From an uncultured Prevotellaceae bacterium (GTDB lineage Bacteria; Bacteroidota; Bacteroidia; Bacteroidales; Muribaculaceae), in contig ONKU01000006.1 of assembly GCA_900318535.1 (NCBI GenBank), positions 1-64,000 on the forward strand: a stretch of DNA of 64,000 nt. Reading direction: 5' to 3'. Positions 15,901 through 19,304 of the stretch are shown here, in pieces; within the stretch, counting starts at the first letter, position 1; the number at the start of each line of letters is the position of its first letter. Under the pieces are notes generated by a model. The model did not search any database, was not told where the DNA came from, and saw nothing but the letters and a program-made list of their open reading frames with translations. The translations under genes were made by a program, and so were the position numbers.

Positions 15901-16190
15901 AGGACGACTACAGCAACGGCCACGGCTTCCCCTTTGTCTATAAGGAGCTGGGCATCGGCAAACTCATCGGTACCCCTGTTCCCGGTACGATGACTGCCGT
16001 GTGGTGGGAGACGCTGATCGACCGTTCACTGGTATTCGGCATCCCACAAGTGGGCTGCCGTGACATGCGCGGCAACTACTGCGAGAACACGCCGCTGCTG
16101 CCCGACATCGAGGTCTATAACACCCCCGAGGACTACCTCACGGGCCACGACCGCCAGCTCGAGCGCGCCATCGAGGAAATGCTCAAATAA
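12948..16190 (+). CDS. Tricorn-type S41 protease with beta-propeller and PDZ domains
   Basis: This large (1080-residue) secreted protein has a signal peptide (about 1-22, ending GAAAQ). Residues ~25-550 are WD40/TolB-like propeller repeats (many SPDGxxxxF units). A lysine/glutamate-rich linker (about 555-605) precedes the C-terminal protease part. The latter has the Tricorn core site: SH in GELNGSHTG (S771, H772), a likely nucleophile Ser in DDYSNGH (S989), and a Glu in GNYCENTP (E1046), with PDZ-like sequence (about 780-870). The enzyme should degrade peptides in the periplasm. It ends 26 bp before a strong terminator hairpin. Tricorn homologues are well known in Bacteroidetes; function in peptide turnover is inferred. 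Confidence 0.87.
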   Translation: MSIKRKVAAIAALLMAVGAAAQTNPLWMRYSAISPDGQTIAFSYKGDLFTVPVQGGTAHQLTTNAAYDAYPVWSPDGQQVAFASAREGSLDVYIISKDGGTPKRLTTDSGNETPLCFLNDGTVLFEATNMPTAQSILFASRSFPQVYQVNTSGGRARLFSAQPMQDLSVNANGDILYHDIKGYEDPYRKHHTSSITRDVWLKRDGQFTKLTDFNGEDRTPRWAPDGKSYYYLSEQDGTFNVYKNTVGGKAVQLTHHKDNPVRFLSVANNGTLCYGYNGEIFTLREGSEPQRVDITVNADRNDKELIRQIRSNGATAISVSPSGKEVAFVMHGDVYVTSVDYKTTKQVTNTPEQERTIDFSPDGRSIVYDSERGGMWSIYQTSIKNKDEKLFTYATDLVEEQLTNTGHTSIQPAYSPDGKSVAFLEDRATLRAVDVKSKAVRTLMDGKYIYSYSDGDVWFEWSPDSRWLLSSYIGEGGWNSQDVALVNASGNGEVHNLTESGYNEGNAKWVLGGKAMIFTSDRAGFRSHGSWGSEDDVYIMFFDLDAYERFSMTKEEKVLREEAEKEQKKEADKAKAEQKTKKKDNKKKKGATEEKPAVPALQFDLENCRDRIARLTVNSSRLGDYVLSKGGDTLYYQAAFEGGMDLWKHDLRENKTEIVLKGVGGGQMMADKDGKNLFVCTGKGIQKIDLAKGKPESISYEANFNYRPQEEREYIFNHIWQQVKDKFYVEDIHGVDWEGYRDNYKRFLPYINNNYDFRDMLSEMLGELNGSHTGVRYNPEGPSLKTAALGLFLDDSYQGDGLRVEEVIKRGPFDVKKTGVTAGCIIEAIDGNSIPAGEDYNWMLDGKAGKPIRVNVYNPKTKKRFDVTVKAISKGEQQELLYKRWVDRNRALVDSLSGGQLAYVHVKEMNSESFRTVYRELLSDKNRNRKAVIVDERHNGGGWLHDDLCTLLSGKQYQSFVPHGKVVGVDPFNKWTKPSCVLVCEDDYSNGHGFPFVYKELGIGKLIGTPVPGTMTAVWWETLIDRSLVFGIPQVGCRDMRGNYCENTPLLPDIEVYNTPEDYLTGHDRQLERAIEEMLK

Positions 16191-16196
16191 CCTATC

Positions 16197-16305
16197 GGGT
16201 ACAACGAATTATCGGGTCGAGCCTCATCTTTTGAGGCTCGACTTTTCTTTTCCACAACAACAATAAAAGGAAAACAACAAGTACAATAAATACAAAGCTA
16301 TCCAG
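16197..16305. repeat. Left copy of a ~108-bp direct repeat flanking the methylase/HNH cassette
   Basis: From GGGTACAACG to GCTATCCAG. Counted by eye, it differs from the copy at 18984-19092 at about 8 of 109 positions. It contains a terminator hairpin (16216-16242) and the motif found also at 7037. Confidence 0.9.
16216..16252 (+). terminator. Intrinsic terminator of the Tricorn-like gene
   Basis: GTCGAGCCTCA pairs with TGAGGCTCGAC across a TCTTT loop, then TTTTCTTTT. Eleven base pairs. Confidence 0.85.
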
Positions 16306-16434
16306 CGCGATATATTTAAAAGACAACTGAATCAACTCGAACAACTTTCTTTCTAATCAACTGATTTATCTGATTATTCTGACTATCCAGCTACACACTA
16401 ACAACTGATACTCTGACACTTTACTGGAAGATTT

Positions 16435-16465
16435 TTTGTTTATATGCAAAAAGTGCCTATCTTTG
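16435..16465 (+). promoter_or_regulatory. Promoter of the structured RNA and methylase/HNH operon
   Basis: TTTG (16435-16438), exactly 19 bases, then TATCTTTG (16458-16465): an essentially perfect Bacteroidetes promoter. The expected transcription start is near 16471. Confidence 0.75.
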
Positions 16466-16470
16466 CACGT

Positions 16471-16779
16471 GGAATCGGGGGAGAAATCCCGAGGACAATA
16501 ACAAGCATTCGCTATTATTTCGCGTTCAGCCAAAAGCCTCGCAAACTTTTTGGAAATAACAAAGCACCGAAATAATGAGTGAGGGTATTCCGTATGGATA
16601 CCTTTCCACTGTATTAATAGCGATGCATTACGCCATAGGCGTGGTGCATTCTTATACAGTGGATGAGGTTTCCATGCGAGGCTGCCTCAAAGCTGAACGC
16701 GATAAGGATGTCATCACGTCTTTTACGTTCAGCGGCGTGATTGATAGTCGACTGCAAACTAATTGACTATCAATCGCCT
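16471..16779 (+). ncRNA. Large structured RNA leader (candidate cis-regulatory or free RNA)
   Basis: No gene explains these ~310 bases, but they fold strikingly. A 5' hairpin pairs 16475-16479 with 16488-16492. CGCGTTCAGC (16521-16530) pairs perfectly with GCTGAACGCG (16692-16701). Within that, 16591-16598 pairs with 16671-16678, CCACTGTAT (16606-16614) with ATACAGTGG (16654-16662), and ATGCATTACGCC (16623-16634) with GGCGTGGTGCAT (16638-16649, two wobbles). GCTGAACG can alternatively pair with CGTTCAGC at 16726-16733, excluding the first helix. GATTGATAGTC (16739-16749) pairs with GACTATCAATC (16765-16775), ending 4 bases before the methylase ATG. An ORF inside (16575-16766) is judged incidental. 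Riboswitch-like control is inference; the pairings are seen. Confidence 0.75.
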
Positions 16780-17856
16780 ATGGCAAACAAGAACCTGAAT
16801 GCCGCTAAGACGGCCAAGAAAGACGAGTTTTACACACAGATGAGCGATATCGAGCGGGAGTTGCAGCACTATTGGCAGCACTTTCGCGGCAAGACCATCC
16901 TGTGCAACTGTGATGACCCCTACGAGAGTAATTTTTTTAAATATTTTGCCTTACGCTTCAACCAACTTGGGCTTAAAAAGCTGATTTGCACCTGTTACAA
17001 CGGCTCGCCAGTGCAAGGCAATGAACTGATGATCGACTGGGGCGACTTTACCGAAGAGCCCAAGAAAATAGCCTACAAGGTTGAGATTACCGAAGTTCGT
17101 GACATGAACGGAGACGGAGCCGTTGACCTAAGCGATGTGCAGTACTTGCTAAAAAACGACAAAAACGTGCTTTCCATTCTCAAAACCGGTGATTTCCGCA
17201 GTTCTGAATGTATCGAACTTCTAAAAGAAGCCGACGTTGTTGTGACCAATCCTCCGTTTTCACTCTTTCGGGAGTATATTGGGCAATTGTTGGAATACAA
17301 TAAACGCTTCTTGATAGTCGGGAACCAGGGAGCCATAATCTATAAGGAAATTTTCCCGCATGTAATAAATAACAAAGTTTGGCTTGGTTATGGATTCAAA
17401 GGAGGTGCAGCTCATTTTGTTTCGCCCTATGAGGACATTGCTACTGCTTCTGATCATAAAGATGGTATGATCAGGGTTTCTGGTGTACACTGGTTTACCA
17501 ATCTAGAGATACCCAAACGAAATGAAGATATAGATCTAGTACGGAGATATTCACCCACTGACTATCCTTCCTTTGATAATTATAATGCCATAAATATAGG
17601 GCGAACACAAGATATTCCATACGATTATGATGGGATTATGGGAGTTCCCATTACCTTCCTTGACAAATATAATCCAAATCAATTTGAAATAATCTGGCAA
17701 GCAAGCGGCAACACACGCGCTTCTGCTCCAAAAGATATTTTAAATGAAGTAGGATATCATCCCCACCCCGAGGATCGTGGCGGTTGTGGTGTCGTTAATG
17801 GTAAAAGACAATACAGCAGAATTCTTATTCGCAACAAACATCCGAAGACGCTATGA
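16780..17856 (+). CDS. EcoRI-type adenine-specific DNA methyltransferase
   Basis: This 358-residue protein resembles the EcoRI methylase family, which methylates adenine N6. Seen: motif IV NPPF at 157-160 (adenine-type catalytic site), and the N-terminal KTAKKDEFYTQ, a family hallmark. An unusual insert at 108-119 (DMNGDGAVDLSD) is a perfect dockerin/EF-hand-type calcium loop. ATG 16780 is chosen; an ATG-like start upstream at 16741 would put the RNA hairpin inside the gene. The stop overlaps the start of the DUF262/HNH gene (ATGA), so they form one operon. The methylase may protect host DNA against the neighbouring nuclease; this is inferred. Confidence 0.87.
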   Translation: MANKNLNAAKTAKKDEFYTQMSDIERELQHYWQHFRGKTILCNCDDPYESNFFKYFALRFNQLGLKKLICTCYNGSPVQGNELMIDWGDFTEEPKKIAYKVEITEVRDMNGDGAVDLSDVQYLLKNDKNVLSILKTGDFRSSECIELLKEADVVVTNPPFSLFREYIGQLLEYNKRFLIVGNQGAIIYKEIFPHVINNKVWLGYGFKGGAAHFVSPYEDIATASDHKDGMIRVSGVHWFTNLEIPKRNEDIDLVRRYSPTDYPSFDNYNAINIGRTQDIPYDYDGIMGVPITFLDKYNPNQFEIIWQASGNTRASAPKDILNEVGYHPHPEDRGGCGVVNGKRQYSRILIRNKHPKTL

Positions 17857-18977
17857 TGACGATAAAACAAATCAGTGTGACCGTGAGGGAGATTACCCAG
17901 GGTTATGTGAACAACGAGGAGCAAGGCGTGAGGGGCTATGACGGGCTTCTGGACATCCGTCCGCCCTACCAGCGTGAGTTTATCTACAACGACAAGGAGC
18001 AGCAGGCCGTCATCAACACGGTGCTGCATGGCTACCCGCTGAATGTGATGTATTGGGTCAAACGCAACGATGACGCCGAGTGTCCCTATGAGGTGATGGA
18101 CGGTCAGCAGCGGACGCTCGCCCTGTGCGAGTATGTAGCGGGGAAATACAGTTTTGAGTTCAAAAACTTCTTTAATCAGCCTGCCGATATCCAGAAGCGG
18201 ATTCTGGACTATCCGCTCACCGTGTATGTTTGCGAGGGTGCGGCGAGCGAGAAACTGGAGTGGTTCAAGACTATCAACATTGCAGGTAAAGCACTCAACG
18301 AGCAGGAGATACGCAATGCTATCTATGCTGGCCCGTTCGTCAGCGATGCCAAGCGTCACTTCTCTAAAAGCAACTGCGGTGCCTATAAGTTGGGCAAGGA
18401 TTTGGTCAACGGAACGCCCATCCGCCAGGACTTCCTGAAAAAGGCGCTGGAATGGATGGCAGAACACGAAAATCGTGAAGGCAAGGCACAAAATCCTGTC
18501 AGTTACATGGCACAGCACCAGCACGACCCCAACGCCAACAACTTGTGGACCTATTTCCAAAATGTCTTGAACTGGGCCATCACCAATTTTGAGATGAAAA
18601 AGTTCAAGAAAATCATGAAGGGGCTGGACTGGGCGCTATACTATGATAAATACCACAACGAGACGCTCGACACGGTGGAGATGGCAAAACAAATCTCGGC
18701 ACTGATGCGTGACGGCGAAATCCAGCGGCAGTCTGGTATCATCCCCTATGTGCTCACGGGCGACGAGCAGCACCTAGACCTGCGAGCGTTCCCCGAAGAC
18801 ATCAAGCTAGCCGTTTGGGAGAAACAAAACCACATTTGTCCCTTGTGCGGCAAGGAATACGACTTCGAGTTCATGGAGGGAGACCACATCAAGCCGTGGC
18901 GTGAGGGCGGCCGCACCGTCATTGAGAATTGCCAGATGCTGTGCCGCGACTGCAACCGCCACAAAGGCGCGAAGTAA
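17853..18977 (+). CDS. DUF262 and HNH endonuclease protein (GmrSD-like)
   Basis: The 374-residue protein has an N-terminal DUF262 domain with DGQQR (83-87), which in GmrS-like proteins binds and uses NTP, and a C-terminal HNH nuclease: CPLC (329-332), GDHIKPW (H345), EN (N359), CRDC (364-367) and H370. The two CxxC pairs probably hold zinc. It is translationally coupled to the methylase by a 4-bp overlap. Together they suggest a restriction-like or modification-dependent defence module. The gene ends 26 bp before a duplicated terminator. Activity and target are inferred. Confidence 0.88.
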   Translation: MMTIKQISVTVREITQGYVNNEEQGVRGYDGLLDIRPPYQREFIYNDKEQQAVINTVLHGYPLNVMYWVKRNDDAECPYEVMDGQQRTLALCEYVAGKYSFEFKNFFNQPADIQKRILDYPLTVYVCEGAASEKLEWFKTINIAGKALNEQEIRNAIYAGPFVSDAKRHFSKSNCGAYKLGKDLVNGTPIRQDFLKKALEWMAEHENREGKAQNPVSYMAQHQHDPNANNLWTYFQNVLNWAITNFEMKKFKKIMKGLDWALYYDKYHNETLDTVEMAKQISALMRDGEIQRQSGIIPYVLTGDEQHLDLRAFPEDIKLAVWEKQNHICPLCGKEYDFEFMEGDHIKPWREGGRTVIENCQMLCRDCNRHKGAK

Positions 18978-18983
18978 CCCCTT

Positions 18984-19092
18984 GGGTACAACGAATTTAC
19001 GGGTCGAGTCTCATCTCTTGAGGCTCGACTTTTCTTTTCCACAACAACAATACAAGGAAAACAACAAGTACAATAAATATAAGGCTATCTAG
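18984..19092. repeat. Right copy of the ~108-bp direct repeat
   Basis: Matches 16197-16305 with about eight differences. Note a C-to-T change in the hairpin arm (GTCGAGTCTCA) that keeps pairing as G-U in RNA. With its twin it encloses the RNA leader, methylase and HNH genes (about 2.7 kb). Confidence 0.9.
19003..19038 (+). terminator. Terminator of the methylase/HNH operon
   Basis: GTCGAGTCTCA and TGAGGCTCGAC around TCTCT, followed by TTTTCTTTT; near copy of the 16216 terminator. Confidence 0.85.
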
Positions 19093-19304
19093 CTTAATTG
19101 TTTGGCTTCTTTATTAACCGCCCTGGCGGGCGGGAAATTGAACAAATTTTTAATAATAATTTGAATAATATCCCGTGCGTTAGCACGGTTAACTCCAGCG
19201 TCATTGAATTACACCTCACGAAAAGAGACGCAAAATCTGATATGAACCCCGAAAGTCAGACAAAAAACTTTCGGGGTTCATATCAGTTTCGCAATTATTT
19301 TTTC
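19093..19304. other. Intergenic stretch with several palindromes
   Basis: No gene seen. It holds CCGCC..GGCGG (about 19118-19129), CCGTGC-GTTA-GCACGG (19173-19188), and a perfect 19-bp inverted repeat with a 12-base loop (19237-19255 and 19268-19286). The last lies immediately upstream of the lipoprotein promoter. Confidence 0.7.
19237..19286. repeat. Perfect 19-bp inverted repeat
   Basis: Arms start CTGATATGAACCCC and end in GGGGTTCATATCAG; loop about 12 bases (19256-19267). It may be a terminator of upstream transcription or a mobile element remnant; only one copy is seen in this window. Confidence 0.8.

Follow-up and report, generated by a model that had tools for sequence, protein, structure and literature searches.

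The window, i.e. the whole stretch of 64,000 nucleotides analysed here, contains an EcoRI-type adenine methyltransferase gene adjoining a gene for a protein with GmrSD_N and HNH domains. As predicted from models (PF13651; PADLOC MTase_II and REase_II), methyltransferase and restriction enzyme lie side by side as in type II restriction-modification systems; NPPY is presumably the methylase motif. A leader of about 310 nt separates a promoter-like motif from the ATG of the methylase. The main features of the locus are the following:

16435-16465, plus strand: promoter-like TTTG ... TAnnTTTG, read in the sequence (TTTG at 16435-16438, TATCTTTG at 16458-16465)
16780-17856, plus strand: EcoRI-type adenine methyltransferase (PF13651, E-value 9.6e-148)
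17853-18977, plus strand: GmrSD_N and HNH protein, matching the PADLOC type II restriction enzyme model

A near-perfect promoter had been proposed at this position in an earlier reading of the sequence (the original prediction). We take TTTG/TAnnTTTG to be the promoter consensus. TAnnTTTG is found within 130 nt upstream of the conserved core of the leader at 75 of 125 loci identified by covariance-model matches, compared with 5.3% of shuffled sequences.

The methylase/HNH cassette is flanked on both sides by a direct repeat of 122 nt (16185-16306 and 18972-19093, 90% identical), as if the upstream gene had had its 3’ end duplicated beyond the other side of the cassette. The repeat contains a terminator-like inverted repeat. 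Its A/C-rich end (16252-16306, about 40–55 nt) turns up in many of the genomes sampled from the genus; with a 607-nt query that includes it, the own genome was hit 11 times, several of the hits being the A/C-rich piece itself. A further inverted repeat of 23 bp (96%, 10-nt loop) is located at 19234-19289, after the HNH gene and ahead of the open frame that follows.

The leader of 309 nt folds at -124.1 kcal/mol, whereas shuffled sequences reach a mean of -77.7 kcal/mol (z = -9.35); none of 100 shuffles was as stable. The predicted folded leader of about 310 bases is thus real, and the observation as a whole was confirmed. A DNA search of the genus detected the leader in 31 of the 101 genomes, counting the own genome. 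Scanning with the HNH protein yielded at least 583 candidate stretches, at least 524 of them relatives, of which the best 80 were kept. Altogether 105 leaders, 97 of them distinct, were located 5’ of methylase homologues. Sorting by motif assigned 70 of the 105 to the window-like type I and 18 to a sister type II, and 17 to neither; three of the 70 type I leaders are type II when read by eye. One locus with incomplete sequence (L061) was dropped. Unless stated otherwise, structure statistics refer to alignment A2, whose 57 rows are the 61 distinct type I leaders minus L073, L062, L076 and L119. Alignment A1 comprises 50 of these 57 rows and A3 comprises 38 chosen rows. A fourth alignment (A4, 34 rows) holds L001 and 33 of the 40 leaders that stand in front of non-EcoRI cargo and have both a PK1 helix and a U-run.

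Positions 16501-16775 of the window represent a member of an RNA family of roughly 250 bases, containing two pseudoknots as well as two competing pairings. The elements are as follows, with the fraction of paired cells in the 57 homologues:

16475-16492, plus strand: 5’ hairpin, from the fold, outside the conserved core and the aligned region
16501-16583, plus strand: conserved 5’ domain with P1 and P2 (alignment; covariance models R1 and R2)
16509-16521 with 16569-16582, plus strand: P1, 89.7%
16522-16530, plus strand: 5’ arm of PK1, pairing with 16692-16700, 98.4%
16531-16536 with 16546-16552, plus strand: P2, inner three pairs 93.8%, outer three pairs 60.6%
16537-16542, plus strand: loop strand of PK2, pairing with 16676-16681, 99.1%
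16584-16602, plus strand: variable hairpin P2b, 62.9%
16606-16613 with 16655-16662, plus strand: P3, enclosing P4 (block 16606-16662), 55.9%, every pair variable
16623-16634 (strand a) with 16638-16649 (strand b), plus strand: P4, 92.5%
16664-16689, plus strand: hairpin P5, whose loop holds the 3’ strand of PK2 (16676-16681), 79.7%, with alignment gaps
16692-16700, plus strand: 3’ arm of PK1, partner of 16522-16530 or, in helix B, of 16726-16733
16711-16720, plus strand: strand c, pairing with 16638-16647 of strand b as helix E, the alternative to P4
16721-16724, plus strand: U-tract of four U directly 3’ of strand c, read in the sequence
16726-16733, plus strand: downstream arm of helix B
16739-16775, plus strand: hairpin D (GATTGATAGT...ACTATCAATC, arms 16739-16748 and 16766-16775), ending 4 nt before the ATG, TGC in the loop

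In the 57 leaders 86.5% of the cells of the drawn structure are paired, against 81.2% in shuffles and 35–44% when the arms are slid, and 36 of the 72 pairs show changes on both sides. Covariation in homologues, the check put forward with the original prediction, was found in PK1, PK2, P4 and E. The low pairing of P3, P2b and the outer part of P2 may be due to misalignment of variable stems. Summed over seven helices, G-U pairs outnumber A-C mismatches 227 to 63, which suggests the plus strand as the RNA strand; P2 shows the opposite (11 A-C versus 3 G-U), as does PK2 in A4 (likewise 11 versus 3).

The original prediction had described a 10-bp closing helix formed by 16521-16530 and 16692-16701. 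The helix exists, and both-sided changes are seen at five of its nine core pairs; own partners were clearly preferred over swapped ones (z = -13.0, 57 homologues). However, it is not a nested closing stem: since P1 crosses it, the core is pseudoknotted. The long hairpin read at 16591-16678 fared similarly. The pairings listed for it exist in the fold, but its outer helix (16592-16598 with 16671-16677) overlaps with the better supported PK2. This loop-loop helix and helix E are additions to the pairings read originally. Both-sided changes occur at four of the six pairs of PK2, one of them being C-G in 32 sequences and G-C in 21; in the wide set 90.3% are paired and eight of nine pairs change on both sides. 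Because the columns of PK1 align poorly in A4, this helix was tested sequence by sequence. The best PK1 helix is better than every one of 20 shuffles in 143 leaders out of 186, but not in the other 43; for PK2 the numbers are 158 and 28. Both pseudoknots are kept, with other sequences, in most copies from other families.

Strand b is shared between two helices: it forms P4 together with strand a, or E together with strand c. Both alternatives pair in 179 of 202 triplets. In the 57 leaders 93.5% of the cells of E are paired with both-sided changes at eight of ten pairs. In the 34 leaders of A4 the values are 93.1% and eight of nine pairs for E and 94.1% and five of six pairs for P4, well above the 20–65% of slid controls; the pair types of E were reached by 55 and the both-sided count of P4 by 49 of 500 shuffles. 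By score 179 of 186 leaders have a PK1 helix, and in 158 of these a U-run follows 8–60 nt after its 3’ arm; in the remaining 21 no U-run is present at the position sought, and that of the window consists of four U only. The 158 leaders were used for an energy test of E, with strand c defined as the stretch before the U-run (the 28 omitted comprise 7 without PK1 helix and 21 without U-run). All 158 pair strand c with upstream sequence at -10 kcal/mol or better, and the mean is -20.0 kcal/mol for own strands and -13.4 kcal/mol after swapping (z = -24.3). Among the 40 of these leaders listed, all with non-EcoRI cargo, E ends no more than 1 nt from the U-run in 37. Helix E looks like an intrinsic terminator because the U-tract directly follows strand c; the predicted helix has the stem and U-tract of such terminators, but its large structured loop is atypical. 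When E was forced in a nested fold of the window, which models neither P3 together with E nor the core pseudoknots, the energy was -78.1 kcal/mol versus -102.9 kcal/mol for the free fold with P4. With a difference of 25 kcal/mol, E would therefore need help or stay a minor form.

A second exchange involves the 3’ arm of PK1, for which an alternative pairing with 16726-16733 had been foreseen. This pairing (helix B) was recovered: when the following bases are included, 56 of 57 homologues have a downstream pairing of the arm of -5 kcal/mol or better, and own partners outperform swapped ones (z = -8.8; none of 2000 permutations). The arm by itself achieves this in 46 of 57 homologues (z = -6.7). 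Some sister leaders, when read by eye, show a compact local stem and U-tract overlapping with the 3’ arm of PK1. Two other pairings were rejected: one between strand c and hairpin D, which would couple E to D, is complementary in 87.1% of cells but does not covary (equalled by 261 of 500 shuffles), and one between strand a and hairpin D likewise failed (z = -0.8).

The hairpin reported 4 bases before the start codon is present as well and 97.0% paired in the 57 sequences. Of 186 leaders, 141 contain hairpin D, and its loop carries TGC in all but two of them (139), against 30 of 3720 shuffles. In the other 45 it was not found within 300 nt, and a few of them have D further on; some copies of the leader lack D or are truncated. 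In the set with non-EcoRI cargo 21 of 45 leaders have it. At L237 and L246, where hairpin D was not found, the start codon of an MBOAT gene lies inside helix B, just past the U-tract, as read by eye.

A covariance model built from the RNAalifold structure (R1) contained only five pairs and was replaced by R2, which covers the 5’ domain with P1 and P2. Of 33 Bacteroidales loci, mostly of type II, R2 recognised 27 (weakest E-value 0.93); among the six without a match, L054 and L055 are truncated at a contig end. On 15 loci mostly from other groups it gave a single match (L103, E-value 0.3), which is not upstream of a methylase. With R1 we detected matches in 29 of 397 genomes of a family sample and in 11 of 393 genomes of an order sample, the own genome included. 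Ten matches of the order sample lie outside the own genome. Seven of these stand before EcoRI-type methylases (tblastn), two are L157/L161 and L159/L162, described below, and one (L160, E-value 9.2e-4) is probably due to chance, as no methylase was found by tblastn and no leader is recognisable. Among 395 sampled genomes of the phylum, R2 detected the own genome only, with filters that lose weak matches. A model search in four other families of the order gave matches in 7 of 71, 4 of 15, 53 of 170 and 38 of 169 genomes. From this search 126 matches were fetched; the others lie at places already covered or at G1346:C17, G1561:C70, G1565:C35 and G1568:C2. Distant blastn gave no match of the leader in phage records and plasmids, and an exact 20-base pattern had no match in viral contigs. 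The leader accompanies methylases only about 29% identical to that of the window (L118, L119), whereas methylases outside the Bacteroidales with about 47–57% identity occur without it. It thus does not track the protein lineage.

We classified the genes downstream of the 126 fetched matches ourselves. An EcoRI-type methylase follows in 76 cases (75 by tblastn; L282 was read at a contig end) and other restriction-modification or methylase-type genes follow in 21 (14 with a Pfam hit, 7 by similarity or by eye), the hits being D12, N6_N4, Eco57I/N6, C5, MmeI, GmrSD and SNF2/ResIII helicase. Cell-surface genes are found in 18 cases (12 with a Pfam hit, 6 by similarity or by eye), with hits to Acyl_transf_3, MBOAT, Sulfatase and Glycos_transf_2. 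The remaining 11 genes are of another kind, unclear or truncated. Both restriction and surface cargo occur in 8 of 93 genomes among the fetched matches. An acyltransferase was also found behind a leader copy in the genus of the window (L115). At L157/L161 the leader is followed by a D12 methylase, an HNH_2 protein and a second methylase, and at L159/L162 by a broken methylase-like gene without Pfam hit, whose relatives at L167 and L171 are open. Three leaders precede small relatives of Cro/C1-type HTH proteins, perhaps regulators, assigned by Pfam hit for L220 and by blastp for L232 and L234. Two further copies look like remnants: a full-looking leader without methylase (L114:5381-5650, minus strand) and a leader followed only by the start of a methylase (L028:132-406, minus strand).

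The start of the EcoRI-type methylase is located 240–291 nt after the start of the core in 70 of 75 cases, and other cargo is found at similar spacing. This similar position in front of varied and unrelated genes argues for action in cis and makes a single protein partner or a guide role unlikely. Two functions suggested originally find no support. These are a control of the ratio of methylase to nuclease and a functional RNA belonging to the methylase/HNH defence unit: the RNA precedes both genes and is likewise found before unrelated restriction-modification operons and cell-surface genes.

At the gathering threshold Rfam 15 had no match in the window and returned only four tRNAs for 16 loci. 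Loose searches gave no match at gathering score except for one tRNA, with microRNA, snoRNA and plastid families below threshold. The impression that the leader corresponds to no named riboswitch is thereby borne out by the Rfam search that had been recommended. We also found no published report of the RNA among the titles and abstract openings of a mostly open-access body of literature. As far as Rfam and the literature were searched, the leader looks like an undescribed RNA family. It is a conserved structured 5’ leader of protein-coding genes, as riboswitches are, and shares with attenuating riboswitches and leaders the pseudoknotted core, the mutually exclusive helices, the U-tract and the use of one leader by unrelated genes. 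In contrast to these it is without Rfam match, and its targets are restriction-modification and envelope genes. Like the HEARO/omega RNA of IscB it is a structured RNA near an HNH-domain gene; here, however, the methylase gene lies in between and the RNA also precedes surface genes, so that it is not tied to an HNH nuclease gene, and IscB and Cas9d models scored far below cut-off. AbiF is another phage-defence gene associated with a non-coding RNA, RCd22, which is reported to neutralise its own protein by binding (PMC12373285); the cargo described here is too varied for one protein partner. For restriction-modification systems a 2025 review, in the portion accessible, lists antisense RNA, C proteins and hairpins limiting access to translation starts of the nuclease (PMC12707154). 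Timing and dosing of genes would be the common purpose, whereas the present RNA is a conserved pseudoknotted leader on the sense strand before the methylase; the words ‘riboswitch’ and ‘attenuat’ do not occur in that portion of the review.

Taken together, our preferred reading, to which we assign a probability of roughly 60% on the basis of sequence comparison, is that the leader is a cis-acting, riboswitch-like transcription attenuator whose core decides between P4 and the terminator-like helix E. A switch or attenuator had been among the roles proposed originally, and it is backed by the covarying, mutually exclusive helices and by E running into the U-tract. Judged from the promoter motif, the transcript would start about 30 nt upstream of the conserved core and fold with PK1 and PK2. 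Strand b would then pair either with strand a, giving P4 as antiterminator, or with the later strand c, giving the long helix E that leads into the U-tract and would act as intrinsic terminator. The choice would be made by the core, with PK1 competing against helix B, formed by the 3’ arm of PK1 and bases around the U-tract, and with a small molecule or a host factor presumably binding the core. Hairpin D at the start codon may add translational control, repressing the gene, or may bind a factor. The leader would in this respect work by analogy to attenuating riboswitches; we do not claim that it belongs to them.

Among the alternatives, dependence on a protein deserves most attention. Processive antitermination operates in polysaccharide operons, and a host antiterminator related to NusG, UpxY or LoaP, or another RNA-binding protein, might recognise the core or hairpin D without any small-molecule ligand, as for the EAR and put RNAs. 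These too are large cis-acting leader RNAs with surface-polysaccharide type cargo, which the surface genes found here recall, and the TGC kept in the loop of D could be a site of recognition. No Rfam match links the present RNA to them, however; it has a terminator-like helix of its own and precedes mostly restriction-modification genes, and the exchange between strands a, b and c beside a U-tract fits simple attenuation, so that we regard a protein-dependent leader as rather unlikely. Still less probable is a purely translational switch, with the start codon masked by hairpin D or helix B and no terminator function for E. The well-paired hairpin close to the ATG and the MBOAT start codons inside helix B at L237 and L246 agree with it, but E runs into a U-run (no more than 1 nt apart in 37 of the 40 leaders listed), and D was not found within 300 nt in about a quarter of the leaders (45 of 186).

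The remaining explanations are considerably weaker. Being stably and intricately folded, and lying near an HNH domain that weakly resembles those of IscB and Cas9d, although far below cut-offs, the RNA could be a trans-acting part of the defence unit, e.g. a guide RNA, a type III antitoxin or a retron-like RNA. The same RNA stands before glycosyltransferases, acyltransferases and unrelated methylases, which renders this highly improbable; the ideas of guide RNA and antitoxin were dropped once the RNA appeared before surface genes. A retron would have a reverse transcriptase gene beside its RNA; the two proteins encoded downstream of the leader in the window are the methylase and the GmrSD_N/HNH protein. 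We give hardly more credit, if anything slightly less, to a DNA element, i.e. a folded recombination site or a mobile cassette collecting cargo. The wide variety of genes behind one leader and the direct repeats around the cassette of the window would suit it, but the excess of G-U over A-C in sum on the plus strand, the promoter motif upstream, the pseudoknots and the U-tract favour an RNA. Finally, an open frame of 63 amino acids is present at 16577-16768 of the window. A conserved reading frame through the leader was considered from the start as evidence against an RNA, but the frame is not conserved: frames of at least 30 amino acids occur in only 5 of 107 leaders, that of the window included, and base changes keep the pairs, leaving a conserved peptide product with a negligible chance.

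Returning to the attenuator, its likely use is the conditional expression of phage-facing genes, i.e. restriction-modification and envelope modification; we infer that exposure to phage, met by restriction or by envelope change, is the common thread of the targets. More tentatively, and in our view with clearly less than even odds, the leader may represent a new riboswitch class, confined to Bacteroidales as far as sampled, through which one cellular signal sets both restriction and surface remodelling. A phage-changed metabolite, SAM or an envelope precursor would be candidate signals, for instance. If this were true, the leaders would define an RNA-controlled phage-defence regulon, of which 8 of 93 genomes carry both types of cargo. 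If the attenuator reading is right, the leader would be an undescribed and widespread regulatory RNA family of the Bacteroidales that links restriction-modification to envelope-modifying genes. The conditioning of restriction-modification expression could then be tested with a single leader-reporter construct, and phage defence in the Bacteroidales would gain an RNA switch open to a direct search for its ligand.
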